Notes under the pieces: model-generated | The model's input: the letters and a program-made list of their open reading frames with translations, nothing else | What the model was told of the DNA's origin: nothing | Databases searched by the model: none | Translations under genes and position numbers: made by a program | NCBI RefSeq assembly: GCF_030540765.1 | Contig: NZ_JAUOEL010000006.1 | Span: forward strand, 186,001-250,000 | Length of the DNA stretch: 64,000 bases | DNA from: Flavivirga jejuensis | GTDB lineage: Bacteria; Bacteroidota; Bacteroidia; Flavobacteriales; Flavobacteriaceae | Direction: 5' to 3' | Shown: positions 34,726-58,929 of the stretch, one piece after another | Layout: each line of letters starts with the position of its first letter | Numbering within the stretch: the first letter of the stretch is position 1

Positions 34726-36636
34726 TTATAAATCATTATCAAAACCAAGCCAACGCTGTTTTTTGTTTTTATCTATAGTGAATACATGTTCTTCTTTTCC
34801 TTTAGTAAGGTTTCTTAACCATAACAAAGAATTTTCTGGAATATTGTAATAAAGCACCGTATCCTTAGCAACTCGTGAGCCTAAACTTCTCCAATTTTTG
34901 TCCCAATAAAACAGTTCATATTCTTCACCAATATTGATATGGTTATCATCATTTCTTACTTGAAATTCAATTGAATCTATATGTTCGGGAGTTTTAAACT
35001 TCCACCCTAATGAAAAATCTGTACCTCCAGAAAGGGATAAAGGATCATCATCAAAAGCACCGTTTTCCCATATTAATTCTAGGTTATTCTTTTTGTAAAC
35101 CGTTCCTGTTAATAGTTTTCCATTAACACCATAAAAAGCCAACTTTGCTAAAAATGATTCTTTTTTATTTGAATAAAAACGGACGTATTTGAATTTTTCT
35201 TTTGAACGTAATTTTATTGTATTTATATGAGTACTATTAAAATTAGTTATTTCATATAAGGTTTTTGCACTATTAAAATCCTTTTTGTTGCTTCCTTGAA
35301 ATACGCCTCCATTTATACTTTTGATCCAATTTATTTTTGATTTATTTCTTGGGGTACTTAATCCTATTTTTCTGGTTAGACTAACTGAATCTAAAGTGGA
35401 TAGATTAGGTTTAAAAAAATGAACTTTTTTTGTATTATCAATATAGAATGGATAATTCACTGGAATATTATTGTCATTTTCTTGATTAGTTGCCATATAT
35501 AATACATTGACTCCAACATTATTATATACATTTTCTTTACCGTTATATTTCCCTAAAGCAATTGGTTTCCAGACATTATTAATATCAAAAACGCATAGTA
35601 AAGGGAGAGAATTTGGTACATCAAATACATTTTTAATTTTAATATTTAAAGTAGGTACATATTCTGCTGTAACATCTTGTTGAAATTGAGATAGCGTATT
35701 TTCTATTTTTTGATGACAATATACTCCCCTATTCACTTTAGGAATACTTTCTTCTTTAAAAGAAATTTTTAAATCTGTTTTCCCATTTACTTGAGTTGAA
35801 TATTCCTCTTTATCATATCTTGTGTAAATCCAAGAATGTCCAAAGGAAGGATGATTACCCCAGTGTAGCACCATATCTTTTGCACAAATAATTCCAATAG
35901 CTCTAAAAACATTGACTAAATAATTTACAGCATCATCGCACAATCCTAATTTCGACTTTTCAATTTGACTAGTACTTAATGGAACAGGGTAATATTTTCC
36001 AATTTTGGTCATATTTATATGTCCAAATTCTGAAGTTATAGAATCTACTACAAATCTTAATGATGCTCCTTTATCTAAATAATTGTATACCCACTTATAC
36101 TTTTTAAATAATTTTTCACGACTGTTTTCTTCTATGGGTTCATTAGTACTTTTGTATGGTAAAATATAATTACAAAAATCATCAAAGGATGCTCTCTTAT
36201 TTTTCGGAATTCTCTTCCACGCTTCAAATGATAATTCAATATTTTTAATTATAAAATTGGAAGTTAAAACCTTAATATCAGAAATTAATTCAGTTTTTTT
36301 AGAAATCGTTTTTGACACAGAATCTAAAATTTTTCCAAAAATTTCACGACGCACATCACTTTTAGGGTAGTTGTAAATACTATCAAAAGCGCCTTCAAAC
36401 CCTTTTATTGTTTTATAAGAGGCATGTTTGTGCATGTTTTTAATAAGAAACACAGCTGCTTTGTATTTAAGGCTATCATCGGGGTTTACCTTATAAAGGT
36501 TCAATACTTTTTCCAATTCAGGTCTATTATCACCTGCTTCTATTAATGCCAATTCTAAACCTTTAGGAATATCTGAGCATGAAATTATTAAAAACGTGCA
36601 GAAAGTAAAAAAGTAATTGTATAAATATTTCATCAT
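34726..36636 (-). CDS. transglutaminase-like lipoprotein, copy A
   Basis: A 636-residue lipoprotein (lipobox IISC, Cys20). The N-terminal helical part (SDIPKGLELALIEAGDNRPELEKVL, YKAAVFLIKNM, GFEGAFDSI) precedes a transglutaminase/papain-like core: C233 in LGLCDDAVNYLVNVFRAIG and H267 in FGHSWIYTRY give Cys and His of a possible triad. The C-terminal half is beta-rich, with a discoidin-like stretch (KYVRFYSNKKESFLAKLAF, DFSLGWKF, IDSIEFQVRNDDNHINIGEEYELFYW) that could bind sugar. It is a tandem paralogue of the next gene upstream. It is the last gene of the long minus-strand region; no partner function is known. Confidence 0.72.
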   Translation of the reverse strand: MMKYLYNYFFTFCTFLIISCSDIPKGLELALIEAGDNRPELEKVLNLYKVNPDDSLKYKAAVFLIKNMHKHASYKTIKGFEGAFDSIYNYPKSDVRREIFGKILDSVSKTISKKTELISDIKVLTSNFIIKNIELSFEAWKRIPKNKRASFDDFCNYILPYKSTNEPIEENSREKLFKKYKWVYNYLDKGASLRFVVDSITSEFGHINMTKIGKYYPVPLSTSQIEKSKLGLCDDAVNYLVNVFRAIGIICAKDMVLHWGNHPSFGHSWIYTRYDKEEYSTQVNGKTDLKISFKEESIPKVNRGVYCHQKIENTLSQFQQDVTAEYVPTLNIKIKNVFDVPNSLPLLCVFDINNVWKPIALGKYNGKENVYNNVGVNVLYMATNQENDNNIPVNYPFYIDNTKKVHFFKPNLSTLDSVSLTRKIGLSTPRNKSKINWIKSINGGVFQGSNKKDFNSAKTLYEITNFNSTHINTIKLRSKEKFKYVRFYSNKKESFLAKLAFYGVNGKLLTGTVYKKNNLELIWENGAFDDDPLSLSGGTDFSLGWKFKTPEHIDSIEFQVRNDDNHINIGEEYELFYWDKNWRSLGSRVAKDTVLYYNIPENSLLWLRNLTKGKEEHVFTIDKNKKQRWLGFDNDL

Positions 36637-36702
36637 TTTAAATTTGTGTTATCTTTTATCCAATACATACTAATTAAGTCTAGCTTATTTACCAACTTTA
36701 TC

Positions 36703-38613
36703 TTATAAATAATTATCAAACCCTAACCATCGTTGTTTTTTGTTTTTATCGATATAAAATACGTGCTCTTCTTTTCCTTTTGTAAGATTTCGTAACCATA
36801 ACAAAGAATTCTCAGGAGCATTATAATATAATACAGTATCTTTTGCAACTTGAGTCCCTAAACTTTTCCAATTTTTATTCCAATAAAAGAGTTCGTATTC
36901 GTCACCCATATTTATATGATTACCATCATTTCTAACTTGAAAATCAATAAACTTAATAGGTTTTGGCTCATTAAATTTAAGACCCAATGTGAAATTTTCA
37001 CCTCCTGAAAAAGATAAGGGGTCATTATCAAATGCACCATCACCCCATGAGTATTCAAAGTTGTTTTGTTTAATGACTTTACCAATTAATAGTTCCCTTT
37101 TCTCATCAAAGAAAGCTAACTTAGCAAAATAGGATTCTTTTCCATTTGAATTGAATCTTACATATTTAAATTTTTGTAATTCGTTTAATTCAATTGTTTG
37201 TAGATGTGTACTATTAAAATGGGATAATTCGTATATGATATTTGAATTATTGAAATCAGACGTGTTAGCCCCCTCAAAAAAACCTCCATTTAAAGAAGTG
37301 ATCCATTTTAACTTATTTCTATGCCTTGGAGTAGTTAGACCATATTTTCTTGTAAGTATTATAGAGTCCTGTTTAAATATAGTTGGTTCGAAATAGTGAA
37401 TTTGTTTATTTTTATTAATGTAGAAAGGATAATTAAAAGGAATAATTTCATTGTTTTGTAGTGTAGCTGCTATGTACAAGACATTTACCCCCAAATCGTC
37501 ATAGTGTATTAATTTCTTTTTATTTATTTCACCAAAACCTATCGGTATCCATTCGCGACTGATGTCAAAAACACATATTACAGGGTTTGAAAAAGGAGCA
37601 TTTAATTTATTTTCAACATCTATATCTATTGTCGGCACATATGTTCCAGTAACATCAAGTAAAAATGATAAAACATTAAATTTCTTTTGAGATGCAAATG
37701 TTAATCTATTAACTTTTGGAATGCTTTCTCCTATATATTCTATTTTGACATTTCTTTTTGCGAATACCTGAGTTGCATATTCATCGTCACCATACCTGAC
37801 ATAAATCCAAGAGTGCCCAGAAGAATGATGATTCCCCCAATGAGATATCATATCCTTGGTACAAATTATACCTAAAGCTCTAAAAACATGAACAAAATAA
37901 TTTACACCATCATCACATAATCCTATTCTAGACTTTTCAATTTGACTAATGCTTAATGGAATTGGGTAATATTTTCTTATTTGAGTCATATTTTCATGTC
38001 CAAATTCAGATGTGATAGAATCTACAACAGATATTAATGAAGTTCCTTTGTCTAGATAACTATAAACCCATGCATACTTTCTAAATAATTTTTCACGACT
38101 ATTTTCTTCTATAGGTTCATCATTATTTTTGTACGGTAAAATATAATTACAAAAATCATCAAAGGATGCTCTTTTATTTTTTGGGATTTTATTCCATGCC
38201 TCAAATGACAATTCAACATTATTGATTATGAAGTTAGAAGTTAAAACCTTAATATCAGAAACTAATTCAGTTCTTTTAGGAGTTGTATGTGTCATAGAAT
38301 CTAAAAGTTTTTCAAAAACATCTTTCCTAAACCTACTATTTGGATGGTTATTTATACTATCAAACGCACCCTCAAACCCTTTTATAGGTTTATAAGAAAA
38401 ATGATTGGGCATATTTTCTATGAGAAATAGTGCTGCTTTGTATTTAAGACTATCTCTAGGGTTTTCTTTATAAAAATTCAACACTTTTTCTAATTCATGT
38501 CTATTATCACCTGCTTCTTTTAATGCCAATTCTAAACTCTTAGGAATATCCGAACAAGAAACTATAGAAGTCAAACAGAAAATAAAAAAGCAATTATTTA
38601 TGTATTTCATCAT
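36703..38613 (-). CDS. transglutaminase-like lipoprotein, copy B
   Basis: A 636-residue lipoprotein (Cys20 in SIVSC), the same length as copy A and aligning end to end with it (shared SFEAWxxIPKNKRASFDDFCNYILPYK, GLCDDxVNY, GHSWIY, and the identical LLWLRNLTKGKEEHVF near the C-terminus). The possible catalytic Cys and His are kept. It lies 66 bp from copy A and 11 bp from the RND permease gene upstream, so cotranscription with the permease is likely. Duplication with both copies intact suggests selection for dose or for two substrates. The reaction (peptidase, crosslinking or binding only) is not evident. Confidence 0.72.
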   Translation of the reverse strand: MMKYINNCFFIFCLTSIVSCSDIPKSLELALKEAGDNRHELEKVLNFYKENPRDSLKYKAALFLIENMPNHFSYKPIKGFEGAFDSINNHPNSRFRKDVFEKLLDSMTHTTPKRTELVSDIKVLTSNFIINNVELSFEAWNKIPKNKRASFDDFCNYILPYKNNDEPIEENSREKLFRKYAWVYSYLDKGTSLISVVDSITSEFGHENMTQIRKYYPIPLSISQIEKSRIGLCDDGVNYFVHVFRALGIICTKDMISHWGNHHSSGHSWIYVRYGDDEYATQVFAKRNVKIEYIGESIPKVNRLTFASQKKFNVLSFLLDVTGTYVPTIDIDVENKLNAPFSNPVICVFDISREWIPIGFGEINKKKLIHYDDLGVNVLYIAATLQNNEIIPFNYPFYINKNKQIHYFEPTIFKQDSIILTRKYGLTTPRHRNKLKWITSLNGGFFEGANTSDFNNSNIIYELSHFNSTHLQTIELNELQKFKYVRFNSNGKESYFAKLAFFDEKRELLIGKVIKQNNFEYSWGDGAFDNDPLSFSGGENFTLGLKFNEPKPIKFIDFQVRNDGNHINMGDEYELFYWNKNWKSLGTQVAKDTVLYYNAPENSLLWLRNLTKGKEEHVFYIDKNKKQRWLGFDNYL

Positions 38614-38624
38614 GTTTTAGTTTA

Positions 38625-41600
38625 TTAAGTTTTTTTCAATATAAAAAGTGGTAAATAGATCACTATTCCTATTAAAGAAAATAGTAACCCTCCAATAGAC
38701 CCAGCTGCAAAAGAAAACCAAAAAGCTTCATTTTGTCCACTCCAAACAAAAGGTATTAAACCAACAATGGTTGATACTATAGTTAGAATTACTGGGATTA
38801 TTTTGTAATTATATGCTTTAAAATAAAGGAATTGTGCATTCTTTTTTGGGGATTGTCTTTTTAAATTGTTGTAGTCGTTAATAATATATAATGCCGAATT
38901 CACACTAATCCCGCATAGTAAAATAAAAGCCGCATAACCGCCTTGATCAAAATTAAAATCAAATAAACAAAAGGTTAAGAATACGCCAACAAAAGAAATA
39001 GGAATCATACTTATAATGGCAAAAGGTTGTTTTAAAGATTCTAATAGAACACTACATATAAAGAAAATAATAAAAATAACTACGAATAAATAATAGTACT
39101 GTTGCTTATCATTTTTATCCCAAGTATTATAGGATTTTTCAAGAACTTTATAGCCTATAGGTAATTTACTATTTAGCGTTTCAATATTACGATCTCTTAC
39201 CTTTTTTGCTAAAGGTTGTGTTCCTAAAAAATCATACGCTACTGTTAATCTATATTGTTGATTTGTTTTCTGAATGACATTCCCCGTTTTTCTTTTTTCA
39301 ATAGTTGCTAATTGGTCTAATTTATATTGCTTACTTTCAATAGAAATGGGTGTATGTTTTAAATCCCACACATTAAACTTCTTATAATCATCAGATACCA
39401 ATTTTACTTGTTGTAATTCATTATTTTGAATAATAGACGTTAATGTCCCTGAGTGTACTTGGTTATTTAAATAGCTGTAAACATGTGTTTTAGAAACACC
39501 TGCTATAGCTAGTTTTTCTAAGTCAAAATCTAAATAATATTCATTAAGTGCACTACTTCTCCAGCGGTTACCAGTAATCTCAGCGTCTTTAACTCTACCA
39601 GAAGAGTTTTCAACTAGTTGTTTTTTTAAAATTTCTGCAAAGCTGTATAATTTATCATAATTATAACCTTCCAATACTATACTATTATTTTTATACCCTG
39701 TGTGAAGAGCATTCGAAAAACCTCTTCCTACACCACTAACAGACCAATCTAAACCACCCAAACTAATAGCTTTAGATTCTAATAGACTTTTTAATGTATA
39801 TGGGAAGGCTCCAAATTCGAATTCATCTTTAAAATAAATAGAAATACTAGAATTTTTATAACTATTAATACGGGTCTCATAAAGTGCTACTTCTTCAAAG
39901 TGCCCTATATAGTTTTCCATTTTAATAACAACATCATTAAGTTGTTCAATGGTGCAGCCATCTGGCATGCTACCCGTTACTCTAAGCGTTGTTCGTTCTG
40001 GTTCGCTATAATATGAATTTTCAAAGACATCTTCTGTAAATAACCTTAAAGAACCTCCTAAAATTTTTTCTAAGGTAGGACGCATTTCTGTATTAAACCA
40101 TTCATTACCCAAAGTCTTATTATAGATACTTGTCAAATTATCATCTCCTTCCATGTCTTTGGGAAGCAAATGTAAAGGCAAGCCAAAACCTAAAATGAAA
40201 AATACTATAAATACCCATTTAAATGGTGGTTTTCGCATCCATCTTAGTATGTTCGTGTATTTTCTGGTAAATTTATAAATGCGGCGTTTTCGTTTTCTGG
40301 AGAATTTAATACGTTTTTGTTCTAAATTCATTTTCTCTAATAAAGCAGGAACATAATACAGAGATGTTAATAAAGACACACCAATATTGATGGCAATAAC
40401 CAAAGCAAAATCCCATAAATTATTACGTTGACTTTCTTCTAATAAAAAAATCACCATTAAAGCACCAATGGTTGTTAAAGTGGCCGCTAGAATTGCTAAA
40501 AATGCTTTTTTATCTCCTTTGTTTCGTAAGTGATCAATCATAATGATACTATTGTCTATGATGATACCAAACGAAATGGTGATACCTGCAAATGAATACA
40601 GTTGAAGTTCTACCTTAAACAGATAATAAAAAATAACAGCTACTAGAAGATTTGTTATAATACTTAGGAATAAAACCCCTAAATATTTGAAGCTTCTATT
40701 TATTAGAACAATTAAGACCAACAAAATTAAAAAAGAAAAAAAAGTCCTTAATTCAATTTTTTGTAGTTCTTCAACAATATATTCGGTGGTGTCTTGTGTT
40801 AGTTTTATAGAGTAACCCATCGGAAGATCCTTTTTTATGATATCTACAAGATTCCGAACCTCTTTTGCTAAGGCTATAGTATTAACACCTTTCTCTCCAT
40901 AAACAACCAGATTAACCGTGTTTAATCCATTAACTCTATAATAGTTATCTATGGCACCTTCTTTATACCTCGCTACGGCTAAATTCTCTAAATAAATAAT
41001 TCTGTTTTTTATTTTTTTTATGGGGATTTGCCCCCAAATAATAACATCATCTTCCAATTTATGTTTTAAAACTATAGCTATTTCTTGAATGGTTTCACTG
41101 TATTTTGATGTTAAAATACCATTCCCTAATGCTTGACTTTTTAAAAAGTCATTTATTGCTATTTCAATATCATTTACAGTGATGCCTAGTTGTATGAGTT
41201 TTTTGTTATCATATTCTAATACCCATTCAAAAGGAGCCGCACCATATACATTAATTTGATTAATCCCTTTAATATTTGACAATTTAGGAACCACATGATT
41301 TTCGGTATGTTTTTTAATAAGATAAGGACTCTCATTGGCATTAACACTATAAGAAATAATAGGCGTATTATTTTCGTTTGCACTACTTAAAGATAATTGT
41401 GGGTAACTAACACCTTCAGGAAGTTCCGAATAGCTTTGTCTTATTAAGTTTGCTATTTCAAAACGAACCATATCTATATCCGCATTTTTCTTAAAATCGA
41501 TAGAAATGGAACCACGTCCTTTATTAGATTCTGAGCTTATTTCTTTAATGTCTTTGATCGTATTAAAAACACCTTCTAGTTTAGAAGTTACTTCTTGTTC

Positions 41601-41765
41601 TATAACTTTGGCAGAAGCGTCCTGCCAGCTAAAATTTACATTTAAAGACGGTGCTTTTTTTGAAGGGGTTAACTGTATACTTAATAAGGGGATTAAACTG
41701 ACGCCGATTATGGAAAGACAAACAAAAATTAAAATAATAGAAAAAGAGGATGGTTTACGTTTCAT
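38625..41765 (-). CDS. RND-family efflux permease (first system)
   Basis: A 1046-residue inner-membrane resistance-nodulation-division permease, the usual HAE/CzcA length. It has 12 predicted membrane segments in two halves, porter domains with IRQSYSELPEGVSYPQLS and VYGEKGVNTIALAKEVR, and TM4 ITISFGIIIDNSIIMIDHLRNKG with the proton-relay Asp. No membrane-fusion or outer-membrane partner is adjacent; those lie with the second RND gene at 51.2-57.0 kb. It is 110 bp downstream of the signal peptidase gene and 11 bp upstream of the transglutaminase-like pair. The substrate is unknown; the context suggests a peptide or a metal. Confidence 0.9.
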   Translation of the reverse strand: MKRKPSSFSIILIFVCLSIIGVSLIPLLSIQLTPSKKAPSLNVNFSWQDASAKVIEQEVTSKLEGVFNTIKDIKEISSESNKGRGSISIDFKKNADIDMVRFEIANLIRQSYSELPEGVSYPQLSLSSANENNTPIISYSVNANESPYLIKKHTENHVVPKLSNIKGINQINVYGAAPFEWVLEYDNKKLIQLGITVNDIEIAINDFLKSQALGNGILTSKYSETIQEIAIVLKHKLEDDVIIWGQIPIKKIKNRIIYLENLAVARYKEGAIDNYYRVNGLNTVNLVVYGEKGVNTIALAKEVRNLVDIIKKDLPMGYSIKLTQDTTEYIVEELQKIELRTFFSFLILLVLIVLINRSFKYLGVLFLSIITNLLVAVIFYYLFKVELQLYSFAGITISFGIIIDNSIIMIDHLRNKGDKKAFLAILAATLTTIGALMVIFLLEESQRNNLWDFALVIAINIGVSLLTSLYYVPALLEKMNLEQKRIKFSRKRKRRIYKFTRKYTNILRWMRKPPFKWVFIVFFILGFGLPLHLLPKDMEGDDNLTSIYNKTLGNEWFNTEMRPTLEKILGGSLRLFTEDVFENSYYSEPERTTLRVTGSMPDGCTIEQLNDVVIKMENYIGHFEEVALYETRINSYKNSSISIYFKDEFEFGAFPYTLKSLLESKAISLGGLDWSVSGVGRGFSNALHTGYKNNSIVLEGYNYDKLYSFAEILKKQLVENSSGRVKDAEITGNRWRSSALNEYYLDFDLEKLAIAGVSKTHVYSYLNNQVHSGTLTSIIQNNELQQVKLVSDDYKKFNVWDLKHTPISIESKQYKLDQLATIEKRKTGNVIQKTNQQYRLTVAYDFLGTQPLAKKVRDRNIETLNSKLPIGYKVLEKSYNTWDKNDKQQYYYLFVVIFIIFFICSVLLESLKQPFAIISMIPISFVGVFLTFCLFDFNFDQGGYAAFILLCGISVNSALYIINDYNNLKRQSPKKNAQFLYFKAYNYKIIPVILTIVSTIVGLIPFVWSGQNEAFWFSFAAGSIGGLLFSLIGIVIYLPLFILKKT

Positions 41766-41875: not shown

Positions 41876-43003
41876 TTAATTTACAGTTTTAAATAGTCTA
41901 TCCCATCTAAATTTGTCTTGATAATTAGAAAACAGGACACATTGTACTTTACCGACTATTTGCTCTTCGGGTACTGGTCCCAAGTATCTAGAATCCTTAG
42001 AGTTTTTTCTATTATCACCCAACATGAAGTAATAATTTTTCTTAAAAATATAATGATTTTCTTTTTCCCCATTTATTAAGTATACTCCTCTAATGTTTTT
42101 TATTTTGACTCCTTCATAAGCATAAATCAATTTTTTATAAAGAAGATAGTTTTTGGGATTTAAGTTAATTCTCATCTCTTTTTTAGGAATTATATAAGGT
42201 CCATATTCGTCCCAACTCCATTTGTTATGTTTAGATTTCGGATAAGCATTAAGAGGAGGTGTTACTATTTTTATGCCTTTTATTAAATTTAATCCTACGA
42301 GTTTGTTTTTATCTTGGATTGATAATGTAGCTATAAAATGATCTTGTTTTGTTCTGTTATATTCAATATTTAAACCTAGGGAATCTAATTTATTATTGAA
42401 TGTTTTTCTGTCATTAACTTTGAATTCGTACTTATTAAGTATTAGGTTAGATGGATACAATAATTTATTATTTATATAGACATCTCCTTGTTTTATAATT
42501 ATTGTGTCTCCTGCAATAGCCATACAACGCTTTACATAGGTGTTTTTATTTATATCAAACACCATGATATCGCCATTTTTTATAATTGTAGTACCAGATA
42601 GTCGCTTATATTTCCACCAATTTGAGTTCATGGAGGCTCTTGTCTTGTCATTTAAATAGAAAGCAATATTAACCCAAGGAATTTCAAAAGGAGAACGCGG
42701 TAGTTTTGGTCCATACTTTAATTTATTTACGATTATAACATCACCATAATATAAAGTATTATTCATTGAAGAGCTGGGTATTTTATAAATATCGAATAGA
42801 AGTATTTTGATACTTACAGATGCTGAAAATATTAAAAATAAAAAATAAATATTTTTTGTGTATTTATAAAAAACAGGATGTTTAATAAACCTTATTAGAT
42901 GAAATAAACCAAAGAGTAATAGCATTATTAAAGATAACCACCAAAGCCCAAATAGAAATAAAATAAAGCTCAAAATGATAAAAAATAATGATTGTACTTT
43001 CAT
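41876..43003 (-). CDS. S26-family type I signal peptidase, accessory copy
   Basis: A 375-residue membrane peptidase. Two or three N-terminal membrane segments (about 4-33 and 52-70) precede the catalytic Ser in KIPSSSMNNTL (S79, just before Met) and the general-base Lys in YVKRCMAIAGD (K158). The C-terminal box MLGDNRKNSKDSRYLGPVPEEQIVGK is complete. A long insert between K158 and that box (about 175-320) is typical of Bacteroidota members. It lies between an RND permease and a TonB receptor, in a locus with AxA-containing peptide precursors, so it may process them; this is inference. A housekeeping LepB is expected elsewhere. Confidence 0.88.
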   Translation of the reverse strand: MKVQSLFFIILSFILFLFGLWWLSLIMLLLFGLFHLIRFIKHPVFYKYTKNIYFLFLIFSASVSIKILLFDIYKIPSSSMNNTLYYGDVIIVNKLKYGPKLPRSPFEIPWVNIAFYLNDKTRASMNSNWWKYKRLSGTTIIKNGDIMVFDINKNTYVKRCMAIAGDTIIIKQGDVYINNKLLYPSNLILNKYEFKVNDRKTFNNKLDSLGLNIEYNRTKQDHFIATLSIQDKNKLVGLNLIKGIKIVTPPLNAYPKSKHNKWSWDEYGPYIIPKKEMRINLNPKNYLLYKKLIYAYEGVKIKNIRGVYLINGEKENHYIFKKNYYFMLGDNRKNSKDSRYLGPVPEEQIVGKVQCVLFSNYQDKFRWDRLFKTVN

Positions 43004-49620: not shown

Positions 49621-49857
49621 TTAGGAGCAACTATTAGCATTCGCCGCTATGCAGCCACGAATCAACTTTTTTGGTCCATGTGAGTGATTACCAGCATTTT
49701 CTCCATCAGCTTGAGCATTCTTTAAACTAAAATTAAGTAAATCAACACTATTACTATTTGTAGTTGTGTTTAAATTTGTAGTTGTATTTGTTGTCAATGT
49801 AACTGCCATTAAACAAACTAATGCACTTGCTGCCAATACTTTTATTATTTTTTTCAT
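49621..49857 (-). CDS. secreted peptide precursor P4 (AQA-leader family)
   Basis: A 78-residue precursor and the first gene of the peptide array. Hydrophobic segment about 6-22, spacer TTNTTTNLNTTTNSN, leader signature SVDLLNFSLKNAQA (37-50), then DGEN. Its core is different: 28 residues with H58 and H60, a basic stretch KKLIRG and only two Cys (C69, C77). This fits a conserved leader joined to a variable product. It is followed by a hairpin and the decayed copies P3 and relic. The upstream 586 bp contain no gene and probably the promoter of the array. Confidence 0.73.
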   Translation of the reverse strand: MKKIIKVLAASALVCLMAVTLTTNTTTNLNTTTNSNSVDLLNFSLKNAQADGENAGNHSHGPKKLIRGCIAANANSCS

Positions 49858-50988: not shown

Positions 50989-51006
50989 GGACAAATTTCG
51001 TCACTT
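50989..51006. promoter_or_regulatory. candidate operator, 18-bp motif copy 2
   Basis: GGACAAATTTCGTCACTT, 15/18 identical to the copy at 50137-50154. It lies 92 bp upstream of the lipoprotein start (50896) and overlaps the last 2 bp of the HTH gene. Confidence 0.4.
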
Positions 51007-51208
51007 AACTATTTTTAATATAATATATGTATCTAACTCTGCAGAAATAAATATTATAGCCCTCTTCACGTAAACTAGCTATCATTCTTTTTATAGTTCT
51101 TACACTACATTCATAATCATTTGCTACTTTTTCTAAAGACCGTAATCGTTCTTGTTCAATTAAATAAATCAAGTGCTTTTCCTTTTCTTTTCTTTCAGAA
51201 TATGTCAT
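51005..51208 (-). CDS. small helix-turn-helix DNA-binding protein
   Basis: A 67-residue protein that is almost entirely a winged-helix/DeoR-like HTH: ERLRSLEKVANDYECSVRTIKRMIASLREEG (about 20-50), with the recognition helix VRTIKRMIASLR and a C-terminal wing of aromatic residues. It follows the TolC gene by 33 bp, so it is probably made with the efflux operon. A regulator of this small type could control the peptide array or the operon; the duplicated 18-bp motif next to it is the best candidate site. Confidence 0.75.
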   Translation of the reverse strand: MTYSERKEKEKHLIYLIEQERLRSLEKVANDYECSVRTIKRMIASLREEGYNIYFCRVRYIYYIKNS

Positions 51209-51241: not shown

Positions 51242-52798
51242 TTAATCATCTAAGATGGCATTGAAATCGTGTTTCAAATTAGTATCGTTTATAAAATTAA
51301 AAAGTGTTAGTTGTTGTACTTCATAATAGAGCGTCCAATAACTCTGCAAACTTTGTATATAATTTTCAGTGGCTAATTGCCATGCCTGTCTAGAACTGCT
51401 TAGGTTCAATAAATCTACTTGACCAGACAAAAATCGTTTTTCAGTTATTCTATAAGATTCTCTTGAAATTTCGCTAGTCCGTAATGTACCCAGCACCAAT
51501 TCTTTTTGAAGGTTAAAATCGTTAACCTTTATAGTGATATTTTGTTTATAAGTGTCTTTATCCTGTTGCAGTTCAATATCAACAACATCTTTATTCATTT
51601 TTGCGGTTTTAATATTCCCTTTTCGTTCGCCCCAATCTAGAATGGGAATATTTAATTGAATAGCAACCATTTGCTGTTCTAAAAAATTACCGTAAACCGC
51701 ATTAAATGTATCGGCTTGTTGGTTTAGTCCATAACTAGCGGTTAAGGATAGATCGAAACGGTTTTCTTTTATGGCTTGGTCTAAATCTCTTAGTGCTTCT
51801 ATTTCCCGTAATTTTAAATTTAAAATATCTGGATTGTTAGTATTCGCATAATTAATAGCGTCATTAACATCTATTTGTAAATTTGAAATTAATTCGGGTA
51901 ATTCTGGAACCGTTTTAGAAGGGAGATCATCTCTTAAAAACAATATGAATTCGGCTTCCGCTTTTTCTAAAACTTGTTCGTTTTGAGTTAGGTTTGTATT
52001 CGCATTATACACATCCAACTCTAAATTAAGTAAATCGTCTTTTTCTATAGATCCTATGGTGTAACGCTGTTTACCCATTTTAAATAGTTTTTCAGCAGAC
52101 ACTTTATTTTCTTGTGCTATCTCCATTTTTTTACTGGCTAATGCCCAATTAAAAAATAAACTGACTGTTTTTAAATTGATAGCCTGTAGCTCGTATATAA
52201 AATCTTGTTTTGCCTTTTCGTATTCAAGAGGTGCTGTTTTATGTTGCCATTTAAATTCATTAAAGGCCATTAAAGGTTGTATAAGACCTATGCTAACTGG
52301 AGTTGCATTATAACTCTCATTAGCCAAAGCACCGAAATTTTCTAACCTATTGAAGGTAGAATTTATAAACAAACTAGTTCCCGTAGCCCCTATGTTTTGA
52401 GTCGCTGAAAGATTAGCATAGCTGTTTAAATTTTGTTGCGATCTGTAAACATCTATATTTTGCTCAGAATCATAACGTTGTATCACCGACCTGTTATAAG
52501 TTAATGGGTTTAGGGTTAAATCTACTTTGGGTAATAAACTAGACTCAAATGATTTAAACTCCCAGTAACTTACACCATATTCGCGTTTGGCTTTAAAAGC
52601 GTCCAATGAATTTTTAATGGCTAAATTTAAAACATCATGGAGTGTAACACGTTGCTTGGTTTGTAATGGTATATCAGTTTGTTGTGAAAATGTTACATAG
52701 CTATTTAAAATAAAACAAGCACTGATACCAATTTGTAATATGTTCCAAACAGGTAGCATCCTAAAAAAGCATATATCGTTTAATTTATTTCTTAGCAT
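51242..52798 (-). CDS. TolC-family outer-membrane efflux channel
   Basis: A 518-residue TolC-type channel protein: signal sequence ending VTFSQQ (about residue 40), VTLHDVLNLAIKNSLDAFKAK, long alpha-barrel helices with LKTVSLFFNWALASKKMEIA, EKLFKMGKQRYTIGSIEKDDLL, VAIQLNIPILDWGERKGNIKTAK and ITEKRFLSGQVDLLNLSSSRQAW. ATG 52798 overlaps the RND gene end by 14 bp. An internal ATG at 52759 gives a tidier signal peptide and would leave a 25-bp gap; either start is possible. Last structural gene of a complete tripartite RND operon. Confidence 0.9.
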   Translation of the reverse strand: MLRNKLNDICFFRMLPVWNILQIGISACFILNSYVTFSQQTDIPLQTKQRVTLHDVLNLAIKNSLDAFKAKREYGVSYWEFKSFESSLLPKVDLTLNPLTYNRSVIQRYDSEQNIDVYRSQQNLNSYANLSATQNIGATGTSLFINSTFNRLENFGALANESYNATPVSIGLIQPLMAFNEFKWQHKTAPLEYEKAKQDFIYELQAINLKTVSLFFNWALASKKMEIAQENKVSAEKLFKMGKQRYTIGSIEKDDLLNLELDVYNANTNLTQNEQVLEKAEAEFILFLRDDLPSKTVPELPELISNLQIDVNDAINYANTNNPDILNLKLREIEALRDLDQAIKENRFDLSLTASYGLNQQADTFNAVYGNFLEQQMVAIQLNIPILDWGERKGNIKTAKMNKDVVDIELQQDKDTYKQNITIKVNDFNLQKELVLGTLRTSEISRESYRITEKRFLSGQVDLLNLSSSRQAWQLATENYIQSLQSYWTLYYEVQQLTLFNFINDTNLKHDFNAILDD

Positions 52799-55700
52799 AG
52801 ATTTTGTTTTTAGCTAGGTAATAATAACATAGCGGAATAAAATATAAACTGACTAACGTCCCCAATAGCATACCTCCTATTAAAGCTATGGCCAATGGTG
52901 CTTGTAATTCTGCTCCTAATCCACTAGAAAATAACAAAGGAACAAGCGCTAATATGGTAGTTAAACTCGTCATAAGTATAGGTTTTAAACGGCGTTGCCC
53001 TGCTACCAGAAGGGCTTTCATTAAAGAACAGCCTTTACGTTGCAGTTGAATAATAGTATCTACTTTTAAAATGGAATCGTTAATGATGATACCGCACATA
53101 ACTACAATACCTATCATAGACATTAAATTAATACTCATACCAAATAGTTTTAAAAACAAAAAGGCTCCTGCTAAATCTAATGGGACTTCTATAAGTATGA
53201 TTAAGGGAATTAAAAAAGATTCAAATTGAGAGGCCAAAATAAAGTAGAGTAATACTAAAGAAATAAGCAGTACAATTTTTAATTCACCTATTAATTCTTG
53301 ATTTGAAAAAAAGCGTCCGCTAAAATTAACATCGTACCATTTGTTATTTGATATGATGTCTTTTACCCTGTCCATTGTAGACGCAATATTATTATCATTT
53401 ATTTGCAGTTCTAAAGGAAAATATTCACCTTCCTTACCGCCACTAATAGTTTTTAAATCTTTAGACGTTGCGATTTTAACAAAGTCTTGCACATGAAATA
53501 CGGCGCTATCCTTGGACGCTATCATGGTCTCACTTAATACCGCTTCAATATTTTTTGTGGTGCTCCCTAAAATAACGGGCACAAAACTCTGATTATCTAT
53601 AATGGACACTATTTCTCGTTCATTAAAGGCACTTTTTAGAGTGTTAAATAGCGTATTACTATCCACACCATAAGTCATAAGCTTTTCTTTATCGGCGACT
53701 AACGTCATATAGTCTTGCCATGCAATAGGCTTTAATTCTAAATTATTAAGATTCTGCTGCACCAGATACCACACATTTTGAAGTTGTACGTTTTGAGAAC
53801 TTCCTAAATTTTCAACATGTCTAAGACGTGCTATTAAAGGGGCGTCATCTTCAGAAAATATTAAATTAAAAATGTTATCAACTGCTTTATAGTCATGAAG
53901 CGCTATAGGGTATTTATTAAGTATAAAAGGACTTATATCATTTTGAATTTTGGCTAATGATTCGGGGTTTTTACATTGTAAATAAATAGTGGTTTCAGAG
54001 GTTTTTGCTTCGGTGTCTTTATCTAATACAAATTGTTGGGTTCCTACAAGCGCTGTATGGTTAATTGTATTATCGTCTACAAGCTCTAAGAGTTCTAAAA
54101 CGCGGCGTTTATTCTCTTCTACGTTTATTTGATTATTCCAATCTATTTTCAACAAGGTTTCAGACCTTGAAAAATTAGGCATGGTCGTTTTTGGTAGCAT
54201 CATAAATAATCCTATAGCTACTATTAACAACAGCAAACAAAAACCCCAAGATATCCTTTGTTTACGCATCACCCATCTAAACCCTTTTTCATATAAAGCC
54301 GCATAATCAAGCGTGTTCGCATGGGTAAGAAAACGACTTATACTACCAACTTTTTTTGTGTCTTTAAAATGAAATAAGCGATATAGAACAGGTAATAAAG
54401 TAATGGAAACAAGTAACGATGCGAATAGACCCGTAGTTACTGCTATGGCCTGATCGTAAAATAAAGCACCACTTATACCACTTAAAAAAACCAATGGTAA
54501 AAATACGGCACAGGTTGTTAGCGCAGAACTAAGCAAAGGTTTTAAAACTTCATTAGCACCCAAAATACAGGCTTTTGATAACGACTCCCCTTGTTCTCTA
54601 AATTGTGTAATATTATCGATAACAATAATGGAGTTATCTATCATTAACCCAATCCCTAAAACCAAACCAGAGAGGGAGATGATATTAATAGAAATACCAA
54701 ACAGTTGAAAAAAGAGTAAACAAATAATTATAGATATTGGAATGGTAATACCTATTAATAAAGGGGATTTAACATTTTTTAAAAACAAAAACATAACGCC
54801 AAAGGCTAAAAGGATACCCCATAGTAAACTTTGGAATAAATTATTGATGGCATAGTCTAATAGTTTCGTTTGGTCTCTACTAATGGAAAAATCGATGTTT
54901 GGATAATCTTCCTCTAAATAGTTTAAAAGTGTATTTAAGGAATCTTTCAAATCCCCCATGCGAGCATCACTTTGCTTAATAATAGCCATCGTAATAGCTT
55001 CTTTACTATTAGAAAGTACCAAACCGGTTCTATTTTGCGGATGCTCTAATACTTGTGCTAATGCTTTAAGTTGAAAAAGTCTGTTATTTTTATTGATGTA
55101 AATATTTTCAATCTCTTGAATATTGTTTAATGATGTACCTAAGCGTACATCGTATTGATATTGATTGTCTTTAATCAATAAACTCCCAATTTCTAAATCG
55201 TGTGTTTTAATGGTAGCTTCTAATTCATCCAAACTGATATTTAGAGCACTTAGTTTATTATAGTCTGGGATTATTAAAATCTCTGAAGCAACTAAACCAC
55301 TAACATCTACCATGGCGACTTCACTAATCTGTTCGATGCGTTTACGAATCACATGATTTGCAAACTGGTTAAAATCAACAAACTCTTGCGTTACTGGATA
55401 TAAGTGACTTTGAGAAGATGCTTTTGTTTTTTTAGAATCCGATTTTAAAGTCATATTTAAATAAAACACAGGGATGTCGGTAGCACTGGCTTTAATAACT
55501 TTTGGGCGCTTTATCGTATTTGGGAAACTTCCCATAGCCCGATCAATTTTCTCATTAACTTCAATAAATGAGTAATCTATTTTAGTCCCGTGATTAAAAC
55601 GTAACCTTAGTATGGCCTTTTCACTACTAGTCTCTGTTTTTATATCTTTTAAATGACTTACTTGCATTAAATTTCGACGTAGCTGCTTAACCACAACATC

Positions 55701-55874
55701 TTCTAATTGTCTTGCCGACATATTTTCTGCAGAAACTTGTACTGTTATCTCTGGTATATCAATATCTGGCATTAAAGACACAGGTATAAATCCAAAGGCA
55801 TACAAACCTAAAATAAGGATGCCTAAGGTGGTCATTAAAACAGCTATGGGTTTATGGATTAGAAATTTTACCAT
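52785..55874 (-). CDS. RND-family efflux permease (second system)
   Basis: A 1029-residue inner-membrane RND permease: MVKFLIHKPIAVLMTTLGILILGLYAFGFIPVSLMPDIDIPEITV, porter strands, TM4 GIGLMIDNSIIVIDNITQ, large periplasmic loops, and TM10-12 GIVVMCGIIINDSILKVDTIIQ ... MTSLTTILALVPLLF. It has a full partner set: adaptor (36 bp upstream) and TolC (overlapping downstream). It is only distantly similar to the first RND permease at 38625-41765. The CusA/CzcA-style Met/Asp/Glu metal relay cannot be judged reliably by eye, so metal or drug or peptide export remain open. Confidence 0.91.
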   Translation of the reverse strand: MVKFLIHKPIAVLMTTLGILILGLYAFGFIPVSLMPDIDIPEITVQVSAENMSARQLEDVVVKQLRRNLMQVSHLKDIKTETSSEKAILRLRFNHGTKIDYSFIEVNEKIDRAMGSFPNTIKRPKVIKASATDIPVFYLNMTLKSDSKKTKASSQSHLYPVTQEFVDFNQFANHVIRKRIEQISEVAMVDVSGLVASEILIIPDYNKLSALNISLDELEATIKTHDLEIGSLLIKDNQYQYDVRLGTSLNNIQEIENIYINKNNRLFQLKALAQVLEHPQNRTGLVLSNSKEAITMAIIKQSDARMGDLKDSLNTLLNYLEEDYPNIDFSISRDQTKLLDYAINNLFQSLLWGILLAFGVMFLFLKNVKSPLLIGITIPISIIICLLFFQLFGISINIISLSGLVLGIGLMIDNSIIVIDNITQFREQGESLSKACILGANEVLKPLLSSALTTCAVFLPLVFLSGISGALFYDQAIAVTTGLFASLLVSITLLPVLYRLFHFKDTKKVGSISRFLTHANTLDYAALYEKGFRWVMRKQRISWGFCLLLLIVAIGLFMMLPKTTMPNFSRSETLLKIDWNNQINVEENKRRVLELLELVDDNTINHTALVGTQQFVLDKDTEAKTSETTIYLQCKNPESLAKIQNDISPFILNKYPIALHDYKAVDNIFNLIFSEDDAPLIARLRHVENLGSSQNVQLQNVWYLVQQNLNNLELKPIAWQDYMTLVADKEKLMTYGVDSNTLFNTLKSAFNEREIVSIIDNQSFVPVILGSTTKNIEAVLSETMIASKDSAVFHVQDFVKIATSKDLKTISGGKEGEYFPLELQINDNNIASTMDRVKDIISNNKWYDVNFSGRFFSNQELIGELKIVLLISLVLLYFILASQFESFLIPLIILIEVPLDLAGAFLFLKLFGMSINLMSMIGIVVMCGIIINDSILKVDTIIQLQRKGCSLMKALLVAGQRRLKPILMTSLTTILALVPLLFSSGLGAELQAPLAIALIGGMLLGTLVSLYFIPLCYYYLAKNKIYAKK

Positions 55875-55910
55875 GAAAATATTATAGGTTAATATTTTTT
55901 GAGACTTTTA

Positions 55911-57035
55911 TTAATTACTTAGCATAGATTTAATAGAAACTTCAGTGTCGTGAGCTAAATTCAAATTACCAGAAACAATAATGGTGTCTCCTGGTTTTAA
56001 TGAGGCACTACTTTTATCTGGGTGGGGTATTACTGTGTATTCACTACTATTTTCATTGGTGGTTTGCACATAAGTCCAATAGGTTTTGCCAGATTTAAAT
56101 GTGAATAATACTTCTTGGTTCTGCCTTAAAATCACAGCGTCTTTGGGTACAACAAATTGATTTTCAATGTCTTTTTGAATACGAATTTTTACATTCATAC
56201 CCTCCATTAAATTCCCATCGTTTTTCACTTTGGCTTTTACCAAAATAGTCCCGTCTTTTTCTACTAATGGGTTTATGGTAACAATACGGCCTTCATAGCT
56301 TTTATTGAGAGCAAAAGGTTGCATTTGAATTTTAGTATTTATAGCTATTTCACCTACTTCAGATTCTATTAAATAAAATTCAACTTCAAAAATTGCATCA
56401 TTTATAAGTGTTATAACAGCTTCTCCTGCATTTATTTGTTCATATTGTTTCCTTTCAATATTGGCGACTTTACCATTAAAAGGAGCTTTTAGTTTTACTG
56501 CTTTTAAATTAAATTGAGCCGTTTTTAATTCATGTAATGCATCTTTATAGCCAGAGCGAATAGCCAACATATTATATTCTTTTGAAGGAATACTATCTTC
56601 ATTAAATGTTTCATAACCACGACCAATGAGTTTATCTTGAAATTCCAATTCGGTCTTTTTTAAATTGATTTCAGCTTTGGTAAAGGCTTGTTGGTAGGTA
56701 AAAGCTTTTAAAGACGCTAGTGTTTGTCCTTTTTTAACATAATCACCATTATTTACATATATTTTTTCAAGGGTTTCTGTGACTTCAAATTTTAAATCGT
56801 TTTTTTGAAGGGCCACCAATTTACCGTTACTTACGATTTCTTTTTTAAAAACACTTTTTTGAAGCACTATAACATCAACCTCGTTTTTTTCTGGGAGGTA
56901 TTGTTTTTTATCTATAATATCAGCTTCTTTTTCTTTATGTTTTGTCTGGGAACAATTTGTAAAAATAAATAAAGCTAATAGTATAAAAACGCGGATTAAT
57001 TCGTTTTGGTGAGCTACTCTTTGGGGTGGATGCAT
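55911..57035 (-). CDS. RND periplasmic adaptor (membrane-fusion) lipoprotein
   Basis: A 374-residue HlyD/AcrA-type adaptor with lipobox FTNC (Cys28). Domains in order: barrel-sandwich hybrid half (LEKIYVNNGDYVKKGQTLASL), alpha-helical hairpin (about 105-165, FTKAEINLKKTELEFQDKLIG), second half (KAPFNGKVANIERKQYEQINAGEAVITLI), beta-barrel (EVEFYLIESEVGEIAINTKIQM) and membrane-proximal domain (VPKDAVILRQNQEVLF). It links the RND pump at 52785-55874 to TolC. It follows the O-antigen-ligase-like gene by 4 bp, which makes that gene part of the same operon. Confidence 0.9.
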   Translation of the reverse strand: MHPPQRVAHQNELIRVFILLALFIFTNCSQTKHKEKEADIIDKKQYLPEKNEVDVIVLQKSVFKKEIVSNGKLVALQKNDLKFEVTETLEKIYVNNGDYVKKGQTLASLKAFTYQQAFTKAEINLKKTELEFQDKLIGRGYETFNEDSIPSKEYNMLAIRSGYKDALHELKTAQFNLKAVKLKAPFNGKVANIERKQYEQINAGEAVITLINDAIFEVEFYLIESEVGEIAINTKIQMQPFALNKSYEGRIVTINPLVEKDGTILVKAKVKNDGNLMEGMNVKIRIQKDIENQFVVPKDAVILRQNQEVLFTFKSGKTYWTYVQTTNENSSEYTVIPHPDKSSASLKPGDTIIVSGNLNLAHDTEVSIKSMLSN

Positions 57036-57039
57036 TAAT

Positions 57040-58929
57040 TTAATCGGTTTTATTATTATGGCGTTGTAAAATTATTTTCATTTCTGCTTGTATTTCTTTT
57101 ATTGCAGTGGATGGTATTTTTATGTCTTTATCTAGTATATTTTGAGCCATTTTAACAGCTTTAATTTTATCGCCATTTTCTTCGTATAATTTGGCTAGTA
57201 AATACATGGGGTAAAATCTAACAGGTATCATGTTGGCTCCATGTTGATACGCTCTTTCTGCCTTATCATATTGTTTTAAATTTTTGTAGCTGTCGCCCAA
57301 AGCCGTTTCTATGATCGTTGTATTTAAATGTAATTTGGCTTCCTCTAATATTTTTACAGCTTGCTTAGCTTGTTTGTTTATTGAAAGTGATTTACCATAA
57401 TTCATTAAAAAATCCCCATCTTTTTTTAATTCTGGATACACTTTTGCGTATGCTTGTATGGCACTTTCATAATCACCATATTGATGACTATTCAAAGCCG
57501 ATTTCCAAGTTTTTAAACTTTGCTCTAAAACAGTTGCGTAGTGTGCAACTTTAAAAATGCTAATAATACCGACAATGAAAATTATTATTTTGAATGGTAC
57601 TAAAAGCGGTTTGTTTGGTTTTAACTCCTTAAAAAATTCATATTTCTTAATAGCTATTGTAGATAACATGGCTAGAATTAATACTAGAATTAATTTAATT
57701 GGTAATATTTGCATGGGGTATGAAAAAAAGGCAAAACACCCTATGGCTAGTAAACCAGAGCTTAAAATAGCAAACATAGGCTTGTCACCTTTTTTAACCT
57801 TTATCTTGAATAAGGTATAAAGTAATAACCCTAAAAATACGGCTCCAATAAGTCCGTTTTCGACTATATATTGCAGCCATTCATTAAAGGCATAGTAGGT
57901 ATTATCGGCAACTAACGCTTCTTGAGTCTCACCATTTTTAACAAAATAGTTTGTTTGAGAATTCATATAGTGCGCTTTAAAACGATCGAACCCCACTCCA
58001 AAAAGAGGATTTTCTTTAATGACTTCTGTAGTAACTTTCCAGATGAATAATCGACCATCTGAAGACCCTTTTTTTAAATGATAAACACCAAATAATATTG
58101 AGCTAATGACAACAATAGAAACTATTGTTAGTATAGTCTTTTTTATTTTGTTCGTATTTCTTAAAAATTTATTTATAATAGAATATCGATATTCTATTAT
58201 AAGTATACTACTTAGACATACAGCTACCCAGGCAGCTCTTGATCGTGTAGCTGGTAATACAAGTATAATAGATGCCATACCTATAAGAGGTATATATTCA
58301 AAAACAACAGCTGCTAAACGCTTTACAATTTTTGACTTATTTTCAATTTGTAATAATCTAATATTGTGCTCTTTAAATAAATACATTCCTATTGCTATAG
58401 GCCAAACAGCTGTTAAAAAACCTGCATAAGGCCCTGGATTAAAAAAGCTGCCTGTTAGTGCAAACCCAGCATGGTTTGACGCGTAGTATCCTAATAATTG
58501 TAAGTTGCCATAAACGGCTTGAATAGAACCAGAAACAATTATAGCTAACAGAAGCCAAATAAAATTTTTGGAAGTTAGACCTCTTAATATTGTATATAAT
58601 AAGCCCAGCCCTACTAATTCTATAAATCGAATGGAAAACCCATAATTAGATTGTATAAAATACCTATTAAGACTAATAAAAATGAATATTATAGAAACAA
58701 AAATATCAATCTTTGATATTTTTAATGAAACTAGTTTGTTCTTGTTAAAGATTAGATTGAGTATATAAAAACTGAGTAGACCTAGTAAAGCATAAATAAA
58801 AAATAATGTCTTTGATGTAATAGTAGAATTAACATAATCTGTCTGGTTTATTGAAGGAATCACCAAAAAAAAAGTTGCTAGTAAAAGAATAAAATAGAAA
58901 CTATTTTTTTTACTCATATTTTGCATCAT
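57040..58929 (-). CDS. O-antigen-ligase-like (Wzy_C) membrane protein with C-terminal TPRs
   Basis: A 629-residue protein: about 12 membrane segments with the Wzy_C/WaaL region (GGFALTGSFFNPGPYAGFL-like, LPATRSRAAW with the conserved Arg, and the large periplasmic loop ENPLFGVGFDRFKAHYMNSQTNYF), then a C-terminal TPR domain (about 465-625, YESAIQAYAKVYPEL, QYDKAERAYQHGANM, KIKAVKMAQNILDKD). Family members transfer or polymerise glycans on the periplasmic face, onto lipid A or proteins. No glycan-synthesis genes are near. Its place at the head of the efflux operon hints that it may modify an exported product. Start ATG 58929 or 58926. Confidence 0.83.
   Translation of the reverse strand: MMQNMSKKNSFYFILLLATFFLVIPSINQTDYVNSTITSKTLFFIYALLGLLSFYILNLIFNKNKLVSLKISKIDIFVSIIFIFISLNRYFIQSNYGFSIRFIELVGLGLLYTILRGLTSKNFIWLLLAIIVSGSIQAVYGNLQLLGYYASNHAGFALTGSFFNPGPYAGFLTAVWPIAIGMYLFKEHNIRLLQIENKSKIVKRLAAVVFEYIPLIGMASIILVLPATRSRAAWVAVCLSSILIIEYRYSIINKFLRNTNKIKKTILTIVSIVVISSILFGVYHLKKGSSDGRLFIWKVTTEVIKENPLFGVGFDRFKAHYMNSQTNYFVKNGETQEALVADNTYYAFNEWLQYIVENGLIGAVFLGLLLYTLFKIKVKKGDKPMFAILSSGLLAIGCFAFFSYPMQILPIKLILVLILAMLSTIAIKKYEFFKELKPNKPLLVPFKIIIFIVGIISIFKVAHYATVLEQSLKTWKSALNSHQYGDYESAIQAYAKVYPELKKDGDFLMNYGKSLSINKQAKQAVKILEEAKLHLNTTIIETALGDSYKNLKQYDKAERAYQHGANMIPVRFYPMYLLAKLYEENGDKIKAVKMAQNILDKDIKIPSTAIKEIQAEMKIILQRHNNKTD

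Follow-up and report, generated by a model that had tools for sequence, protein, structure and literature searches.

The closest described relatives of the locus reported here are the NVEALA proteins (PF14055), small proteins annotated, together with adjoining 6-bladed propellers, in gut bacteria and without a function. The locus lies in a 64,000 nt stretch of Flavivirga jejuensis DNA (GCF_030540765.1, contig NZ_JAUOEL010000006.1, positions 186,001 to 250,000; hereafter the window), part of a 6.0 Mb genome (G000, contig C30), and runs on the minus strand from 58,929 down to 34,726. Its small precursor genes resemble NVEALA in having a hydrophobic N-terminus, a linker, a hydrophobic/acidic stretch leading to AxA followed by xE or xGE, a variable Cys-rich core and adjoining 6-bladed propeller genes. 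NVEALA loci in three genomes (G870, G1013, G1094) and on plasmids of Phocaeicola vulgatus and P. dorei also carry the same type I signal peptidase (S26), Wzy_C/TPR and transglutaminase genes; HlyD/RND/TolC genes are found in G870 and G1013, HlyD and TolC alone (at the edge of the stretch) in G1094, and none on the plasmid stretches. The leaders themselves differ, DLALxNVEALA in NVEALA and DLLxFSLKxAQA in the window, and the window precursors fall under the Pfam cut-off (E 0.07 and 0.24). On balance, we lean towards reading the locus as a representative of a system, conserved in Bacteroidota, for the production and export of small cystine-rich peptides. The system is apparently undescribed, no description having been found in the open-access literature (subscription papers and preprints lay outside the search).

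Single components resemble parts of other known systems. With MdtABC the locus shares an adaptor, TolC and two different RND subunits per locus, and MdtB is the nearest solved sequence to its first permease, but the second is not specifically MdtC-like and the window permeases lie apart. The Wzy_C/TPR protein belongs to the family of O-antigen ligases and O-oligosaccharyltransferases (7tpg, 9rmk; PF04932), with weak profile matches (E 0.005 and 0.001) and the aligned Arg kept, whereas the acceptor-site His of these enzymes is Phe or Tyr in all 16 aligned system members. In outline only, the proposed pathway can be likened to that of heat-stable enterotoxin-type peptides, which are exported by Sec, cut by signal peptidase, disulfide-bonded and released through TolC. 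Those peptides use the host DsbA and a shared pump, whereas here the extra peptidase, often RND genes and, in many of the cassettes, a thioredoxin-like gene are encoded along with the peptide. The fulvocin C-related family (NF033852) shares neighbours with the system on a Bacteroides finegoldii plasmid (transglutaminase-like, DUF1573, TlpA and Wzy_C), but its protein is larger than the precursors and was found in one of 20 genomes, not beside the loci there.

The sequence-only reading of the window had proposed an undescribed peptide maturation and export locus, and this is supported by the recurrence of the gene neighbourhood across genera and families. The probe that worked was a profile of the Wzy_C/TPR protein, which matched 9 of 299 genomes of the family (E ≤ 1e-100), 5 of 295 of the class (E ≤ 1e-60) and 4 of 150 of genus g127 (E ≤ 1e-100). 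With the window's own genome counted in both the family and class sets, and with the addition of Flavobacterium undicola (first reached through the transglutaminase-like lipoprotein) and G582 (reached via its S26 gene), this gave 19 genomes, and up to 40 kb around each match was examined. The system is sporadic, occurring in about 2–3% of sampled genomes, and the genomes with it belong to four or more families of the class (f1, f25, f112 and f122). Precursors lie near the Wzy_C/TPR gene in 17 of the 19 genomes. The exceptions are G061, a decayed locus with a broken Wzy_C gene, a transglutaminase fragment and only the housekeeping S26, and G1318, in which no precursor was found and which has, directly upstream, genes that we take from their sequence to be transposase-like. 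S26 genes are present in 16 of the 19 loci (those of G153 are on other contigs, the F. undicola contig stops short, and the housekeeping enzyme is the only one in G061), and a transglutaminase-like gene in 14 (not seen in G152, G018 and G1138; on another contig in G153; the fragment in G061). HlyD, RND1 and TolC genes are all present in 13 genomes, and RND2 in 12 (in G153 it is on another contig); the decay of G061 and the end of the F. undicola contig apply here as well. The co-occurrence of precursors with propeller, S26 and RND genes, whose absence elsewhere had been named earlier as a refutation, was found, with RND genes in most loci. Identity to the window proteins ranges from 93% (RND1, G207) down to 26–45% outside the family, and the recurrent members of the set also include RND2, the Wzy_C/TPR protein and the transglutaminase-like lipoprotein. 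The TonB receptor and HGWYW lipoprotein of the window gave no BLAST match in the other examined loci; by this comparison they are local additions, and the earlier suggestion that the peptide is sensed or taken back, which was based on them, is left unsupported. TonB re-uptake was rejected as a general feature.

On contig 14 of F. undicola, a precursor of NVEALA layout (leader end NLNVAHA-EGE) lies beside a Wzy_C/TPR gene 53% identical to that of the window. Three other probes were tried and rejected. The precursor profile matched 6 of 299 family genomes at E ≤ 0.01, of which the own genome alone was convincing and the other five (E 0.002–0.007) were partial or interrupted by stops; being short and variable, the precursors are untraceable by their own sequence. 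The propeller (7 of 395 genomes of the order at E ≤ 1e-10) is too diverged to define the system, and the transglutaminase, searched against genome contigs, returned two F. undicola loci only, with records close to the own genome possibly left out. PF14055 gave three matches over 296 genomes of the phylum, with one genome above the cut-off.

The features of the locus, in gene order on the minus strand, are as follows.

57040..58929, minus: Wzy_C membrane protein with C-terminal TPR repeats (PF04932 E 8e-20 plus TPR); Phe348 at the ligase-type His, by comparison of the His column
55911..57035, minus: HlyD-type periplasmic adaptor lipoprotein; relatives 32–86% identical adjoin the system in other loci
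52785..55874, minus: RND permease 1 (RND1), MdtB-like (MdtB 9lyq nearest solved sequence, E 8e-78); 43–93% identity in other loci
51242..52798, minus: TolC-type outer-membrane channel, kept beside RND1 in other loci
51005..51208, minus: small HTH protein, probable regulator (HTH_11 E 2.5e-6)
50444..50896, minus: HGWYW lipoprotein, local, outside the recurrent set
49621..49857, minus: precursor P1, intact; leader end NAQA/DGEN, core with 2 Cys
about 49326..49546, minus: precursor P2, decayed, from the own-genome search; start shifted (read by eye) and an in-frame TAG
about 49249..49293, minus: possible fossil of a further precursor (TQAYSEGSD), marginal (tblastn E 0.38–1.1)
48052..49182, minus: 6-bladed propeller lipoprotein 1 (PF17170 E 1.5e-36)
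47733..47963, minus: precursor P3, intact; leader end SAQA/HGEG, core with 4 Cys
46573..47691, minus: 6-bladed propeller lipoprotein 2 (PF17170 E 4e-35)
46256..46495, minus: precursor P4, intact; leader end SAQA/HGEG, core with 4 Cys
45700..46194, minus: DUF1573 lipoprotein (PF07610 E 1.4e-31)
43173..45392, minus: TonB-dependent receptor, local, outside the recurrent set; Plug domain, weak relatives FecA/BtuB
41876..43003, minus: extra type I signal peptidase (S26) with Ser/Lys dyad (PF10502 E 1.9e-36)
38625..41765, minus: RND permease 2 (RND2), no adjoining adaptor gene (ACR_tran E 3e-87); 39–78% identity in other loci
36703..38613, minus: transglutaminase-like lipoprotein a, from its predicted structure and invariant Cys233
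34726..36636, minus: transglutaminase-like lipoprotein b, 66% identical to a by sequence comparison

The HlyD and TolC family labels are presumed from sequence and gene order. All of the genes named in the sequence-only reading lie where it had placed them on the minus strand; the shared leader and the alternation of precursors with two propeller lipoproteins were borne out by the coordinates, the own-genome search and PF17170. Its count of three intact and two decayed precursors holds for P1, P3, P4 and one decayed copy (P2). The second decayed copy is marginal, and one unrelated place in the window matches its 9-mer equally well.

Residues invariant among the window precursors include DLL, FSLK, AQA and GE. 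Precursors were found at four places in the own genome, all at this locus (E 1.7e-47 to 1e-24), with none further at E ≤ 10. A profile of other flavobacterial precursors ranked the four copies above every other open reading frame (ORF) of the window, while a profile of NVEALA precursors placed P3 first, P1 third and P4 third to fourth, behind an unrelated ORF. The window leaders are, with good support, homologous to those of other flavobacterial precursors (hhalign 95%, E 5e-8). Homology to the NVEALA leaders is likely (91.6%, E 8e-7); controls gave 2–12%, yet unrelated lipoprotein N-termini reached 85% with each other. The likeness to NVEALA proposed earlier stands for the layout and is likely but unproven for the leader itself.

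Forty-four precursors from 18 genomes were compared (the 17 with a precursor near the Wzy_C/TPR gene, and G131). In those measured, the best hydrophobic window begins at residue 4–12. The long-leader type has its AxA 17–29 residues past the hydrophobic segment (36 of 36 measurable precursors), preceded by a brief run of hydrophobic and acidic residues, for instance LDLASLISLNTANA or SDLALxNVEALA. One more precursor (G173) is truncated at its start, and the seven of G131 have short leaders, with ordinary-looking signal peptides before similar Cys-rich cores. An exact AxA ends the leader in 40 of the 44, and E, Q, D or N comes next in 32 of 44, counts that are not independent because the sites were placed by eye. 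Ordinary signal peptides have 3–7 residues between the hydrophobic segment and the cut site. The greater distance found here would suit small membrane proteins that stay uncleaved, with a permanent hydrophobic anchor, an uncut AxA and an S26 serving other substrates. This is quite improbable, since the residues following AxA fit signal peptidase I sites, most loci have an extra S26 with an intact dyad, and the G131 cores follow ordinary-looking signal peptides.

The cores contain 8.2% Cys (180 of 2193 residues). They have 2, 4 or 6 Cys in 38 of the 44 precursors (4 in 22 of them) and an odd number in six, giving a binomial p of 5e-7 that assumes independent precursors, an independence that is incomplete. 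A post hoc ORF rule (hydrophobic start, AxA at 36–52, gap of 15–30, at least two Cys) gave 32 matches, 28 within the system spans and their 1.5 kb margins (spans 379 kb) and four outside (565 kb); three of the latter are NVEALA genes beside propellers and one looks spurious. The window cores are rich in His as well, and a TonB receptor and the HGWYW lipoprotein are close by, as might be expected if the Cys/His peptides were exported metallophores or metal sinks served by the RND proteins. Such a role in metal handling is very improbable. In most other cores the many Cys are not accompanied by His clusters (some His is present in a few, e.g., G870_3), the receptor and the HGWYW lipoprotein belong to the window alone, and RND1 is nearest to MdtB, with the metal pump ZneA far weaker (E 1e-56). 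In PMC10434189, the presumed locus genes of Bacteroides thetaiotaomicron have second values of 0.113 to 0.437 under iron starvation, taken here as p values.

The extra signal peptidase is a plausible enzyme for the AxA cut, in line with the cleavage after AQA that was predicted from the window. Residues S79 and K158, the Ser/Lys dyad, are invariant in 19 of 19 aligned rows. S26 genes were counted in 22 chosen genomes (14 with an intact locus, the decayed G061 and seven for comparison): an enzyme beyond the large housekeeping one is present in all 14 and absent from G061. Five of the seven comparison genomes have the housekeeping S26 only; G019 has an extra 257-residue S26 outside such a locus, and G002 an extra one beside a transglutaminase-like gene. 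A KRC motif was considered as a mark of the special S26 and rejected, as 17 of 19 housekeeping enzymes carry it. The G002 stretch (C6:72001-92000) has five tandem secreted proteins, presumably GLPGLI-like, an 891-residue protein, a DUF1573 protein, the extra S26 (39%) and a transglutaminase-like lipoprotein (35%), and may represent the same enzymes with another type of substrate.

The two 636-residue lipoproteins at the end of the locus have no Pfam match over the cut-off. In a structural model (predicted local distance difference test, pLDDT, 87.7), residues 130–431 form a transglutaminase-like core (VIA Z 8.8; Foldseek best E 3e-4, with low TM-scores), and the C-terminal domain, residues 452–566, is like a domain of the galactanase BT0290 (Z 10.1). 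Cys233 is invariant in 17 of 17 rows and a His is near-invariant, the Cys and His columns being covered; the modelled fold together with these residues indicates a transglutaminase-like catalytic core. Two alignment columns in which 7tpg has Arg also hold Arg in the Wzy_C proteins of the system, one of them in 15 and the other in all of the 16 rows; the ligase-type His column holds Phe in 15 and Tyr in one of the 16 system rows. In a control comparison, none of seven system rows had this His and 12 of 15 other Wzy_C proteins, from seven genomes, did. The alignment suggests that the Wzy_C protein is probably not an ordinary O-antigen ligase, the ligase histidine being absent.

These enzymes raise the question of a ribosomally synthesised and post-translationally modified peptide (RiPP), cross-linked by the transglutaminase-like lipoprotein and/or glycosylated by the Wzy_C protein before export. 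The invariant Cys, the conserved Arg columns and the recurrence of the pair near precursors would fit, but the loss of the ligase-type His from all 16 system proteins does not, and Wzy_C(Phe)-transglutaminase genes in G127 and transglutaminase and S26 genes in G002 were seen without a precursor, so that their substrate may be something else. Modification of this kind is rather unlikely. In G127 (C11:1058001-1090000), a 600-residue Wzy_C protein, the one protein outside the system in the control comparison to have Phe at the His column, adjoins a transglutaminase-like protein and no precursor was recognised; the pair would appear to occur outside the peptide system and to serve something else as well.

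Precursors and propellers were compiled into 36 pairs from 17 genomes (of the 44 precursors, three had no propeller in reach and five sharing one were dropped). Under a fixed rule, a CxxC protein follows the propeller in 22 of the 36 cassettes. Among 19 hand-picked proteins at the post-propeller position, 17 have CxxC (the exceptions are the window DUF1573 protein and one other) and three give weak Redoxin matches. One CxxC protein was modelled (pLDDT 88), its best VIA score in the rows shown being Z 8.1, with thioredoxin or peroxiredoxin folds, and its best Foldseek E 2.7e-3. On this model, the CxxC protein appears to have a thioredoxin-like fold, and its presence in the cassettes points to disulfides. 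In the window, DUF1573 occupies the position of the thioredoxin-like protein; G1307, G1225, G131 and G1138 hold both kinds.

Between genomes, cores that adjoin similar propellers resemble each other more than they do after the propellers have been reassigned at random among the cassettes of each genome, at all seven cut-offs. Of 5000 shuffles, 91, 16, 16, 11, 48, 21 and 92 attained the observed value with the top 5, 10, 14, 20, 30, 40 and 60 pairs, with core similarities low throughout, few informative genomes and seven cut-offs tried. Leader similarity showed no such propeller-matched effect in the same shuffling. Propeller and CxxC protein types co-segregate (rho 0.71 over 221 inter-genome pairs), and all ten pairs with a propeller similarity above 0.3 have a CxxC similarity of at least 0.39, a pattern that shared descent of neighbouring genes alone could also give. 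In each of the eight genomes that have more than one precursor and correct cuts, leaders are more alike than cores (67% versus 44% in the window, 73% versus 23% in G1307).

The set extends to gut bacteria and to plasmids. Six precursors of G870 are above the Pfam NVEALA cut-off, and those of G1013 and G1094 share the layout. From the NVEALA-type precursors and the Phocaeicola plasmids, we infer that these three genomes and G1138 are Bacteroidales, of the same class as the window. A search of plasmid proteins found the Wzy_C/TPR protein in five records, four of which were examined. Plasmid pPvulCL10_1 of P. vulgatus CL10T00C06 has in one row, by an annotation made independently of the present analysis, genes for NVEALA, 6-bladed beta-propeller, redoxin-domain, signal peptidase I (lepB), O-antigen ligase family, hypothetical, transglutaminase-domain and propeller proteins. 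The P. dorei plasmid repeats this row, except that transposase genes lie at the redoxin gene. On the P. massiliensis plasmid (an unannotated record) there are Wzy_C, a propeller, two CxxC proteins, S26 and transglutaminase, and no recognised precursor. Plasmid 9 of B. finegoldii (8600-17400) carries transglutaminase-like, DUF1573, fulvocin C-related (NF033852, E 5e-32), TlpA and Wzy_C genes, with no NVEALA and no S26 in this stretch. The P. vulgatus plasmid has three NVEALA precursors (outside the set of 44) with 5, 6 and 6 core Cys by eye, and more NVEALA-propeller pairs lie elsewhere on the P. vulgatus and P. dorei plasmids. Gene names in PMC10434189, namely BT0662 (O-antigen ligase), BT0664 (6-bladed propeller), BT0667 (signal peptidase I) and BT0669 (RND adaptor), suggest that B. 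thetaiotaomicron has a copy of the locus (BT0662–BT0669).

As to function, we lean to antagonism in view of the immunity-like pairing of precursors and propellers, the plasmid copies and the fulvocin-related neighbour: the peptides would be bacteriocins, the propellers (and the thioredoxin-like neighbour, if present) the matching immunity factors, and the pump the exporter of the toxin. Antagonism in this sense would give a function to the preferred reading set out below and does not compete with it. The tandem cassettes with leaders more alike than cores, the tracking of similar propellers by cores and not by leaders, the extra NVEALA-propeller pairs on plasmids of gut Phocaeicola, and the joining of Wzy_C, transglutaminase-like and DUF1573 genes with a bacteriocin family protein in B. 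finegoldii would all suit it. Taken by itself, such a function is nevertheless somewhat unlikely: the scanned precursors match no bacteriocin family over the cut-off, and the propellers and thioredoxin-like proteins exceed the usual size of immunity proteins. The fulvocin-related family was found in only one of 20 genomes tested, away from the examined loci, and was rejected as a member of the main set. Alternatively, exported or surface-held peptides could act on sister cells or the envelope, in signalling, adhesion or as a surface scaffold, with the propellers as receptors. One lipoprotein partner per peptide would agree with this, as would the small HTH gene, which follows TolC in the window and in four further genomes (63–76% identical in three, seen by eye in the fourth). 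On the locus maps, which were not searched systematically for them, we noticed neither a sensor kinase nor a TonB receptor that recurs, and the window receptor is unmatched in the other loci, making this role unlikely.

In the preferred reading, a cystine-rich peptide pathway, the precursor would enter the inner membrane by Sec via its N-terminal hydrophobic segment, and the S26 of the locus would cut after AxA, freeing a peptide of mostly 28 to about 75 residues. From their composition and the modelled fold, the usually 2, 4 or 6 Cys may form disulfides with the help of the thioredoxin-like or DUF1573 protein of the cassette. Export would then be through the HlyD/RND/TolC pump, in which RND2 may be a second subunit alongside RND1, as MdtC is alongside MdtB; this is the weakest step, as several loci have no pump genes nearby. 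The propeller lipoprotein may be the cognate binding partner of the adjoining precursor, most likely for self-protection or escort, and the transglutaminase-like lipoprotein and Wzy_C/TPR protein are a putative functional pair. Observed directly are the gene set and how often it recurs, the layout of the leader, the parity of the Cys counts, the catalytic residues and the predicted folds, and from these the steps of the pathway are inferred.

Several results weigh against this pathway. Pump genes (HlyD, RND1 and TolC) are absent from the examined stretches of G018, G173 and G1318 and from all four plasmid stretches; under the proposed pathway, export from the plasmid copies and these three chromosomal loci would depend on a pump encoded outside those stretches. 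By the fixed rule, 14 of the 36 cassettes lack a CxxC protein, the two of the window included. The global rank correlation between core and propeller similarity is rho −0.03 over 593 inter-genome pairs, the effect being confined to the most similar propellers, and the low similarities and few informative genomes behind the shuffling test and the placing of cut sites by eye count here as well. Leaders of G582 are barely more alike than its cores (0.29 versus 0.26). A requirement of the long leader for a dedicated S26 was rejected, because the two G131 loci have short leaders with an S26 nearby. The window precursors do not reach the PF14055 gathering cut-off of 27 bits (P4 11.6, P3 13.2, P1 not listed), and PF14055 has no match in the own genome.

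A broader view can be put forward only tentatively, as a possibility short of probable: a weapon or signal system found across the class, carried in part by plasmids and extending to gut Phocaeicola and Bacteroides, with disulfide-bonded micro-peptides made from an unusual split leader, a private S26, a private thioredoxin, a private two-permease RND/TolC pump (a chromosomal pump for the plasmid copies), matched propellers and a repurposed Wzy_C lacking the ligase His. Joining the NVEALA-type genes to an extra signal peptidase, thioredoxin-like and transglutaminase-like proteins and mostly (on chromosomes) an RND/TolC pump in one recurrent set provides a testable pathway with predicted mature N-termini, and B. 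thetaiotaomicron, a carrier suggested by the gene names in PMC10434189, is genetically tractable. If antagonistic or signalling, the peptides would be a new secreted class in the human gut and in flavobacteria.

Some loci have further features. In G153, the precursor cassettes (at least four) and several S26 genes are scattered over different, partly very short contigs, hinting that repeated copies broke the assembly. A secreted protein of about 750–820 residues is encoded between the propeller/CxxC genes and S26 or transglutaminase in G207, G173 (two copies), G1223 and one plasmid stretch (L142). Contig 25 of F. undicola carries a second transglutaminase copy, which adjoins a fragment similar to the beginning of the Wzy gene and a set of RiPP-like character comprising an M50-like protein, an HTTM protein, a TED-domain protein and a 54-residue peptide ending in GSGG.

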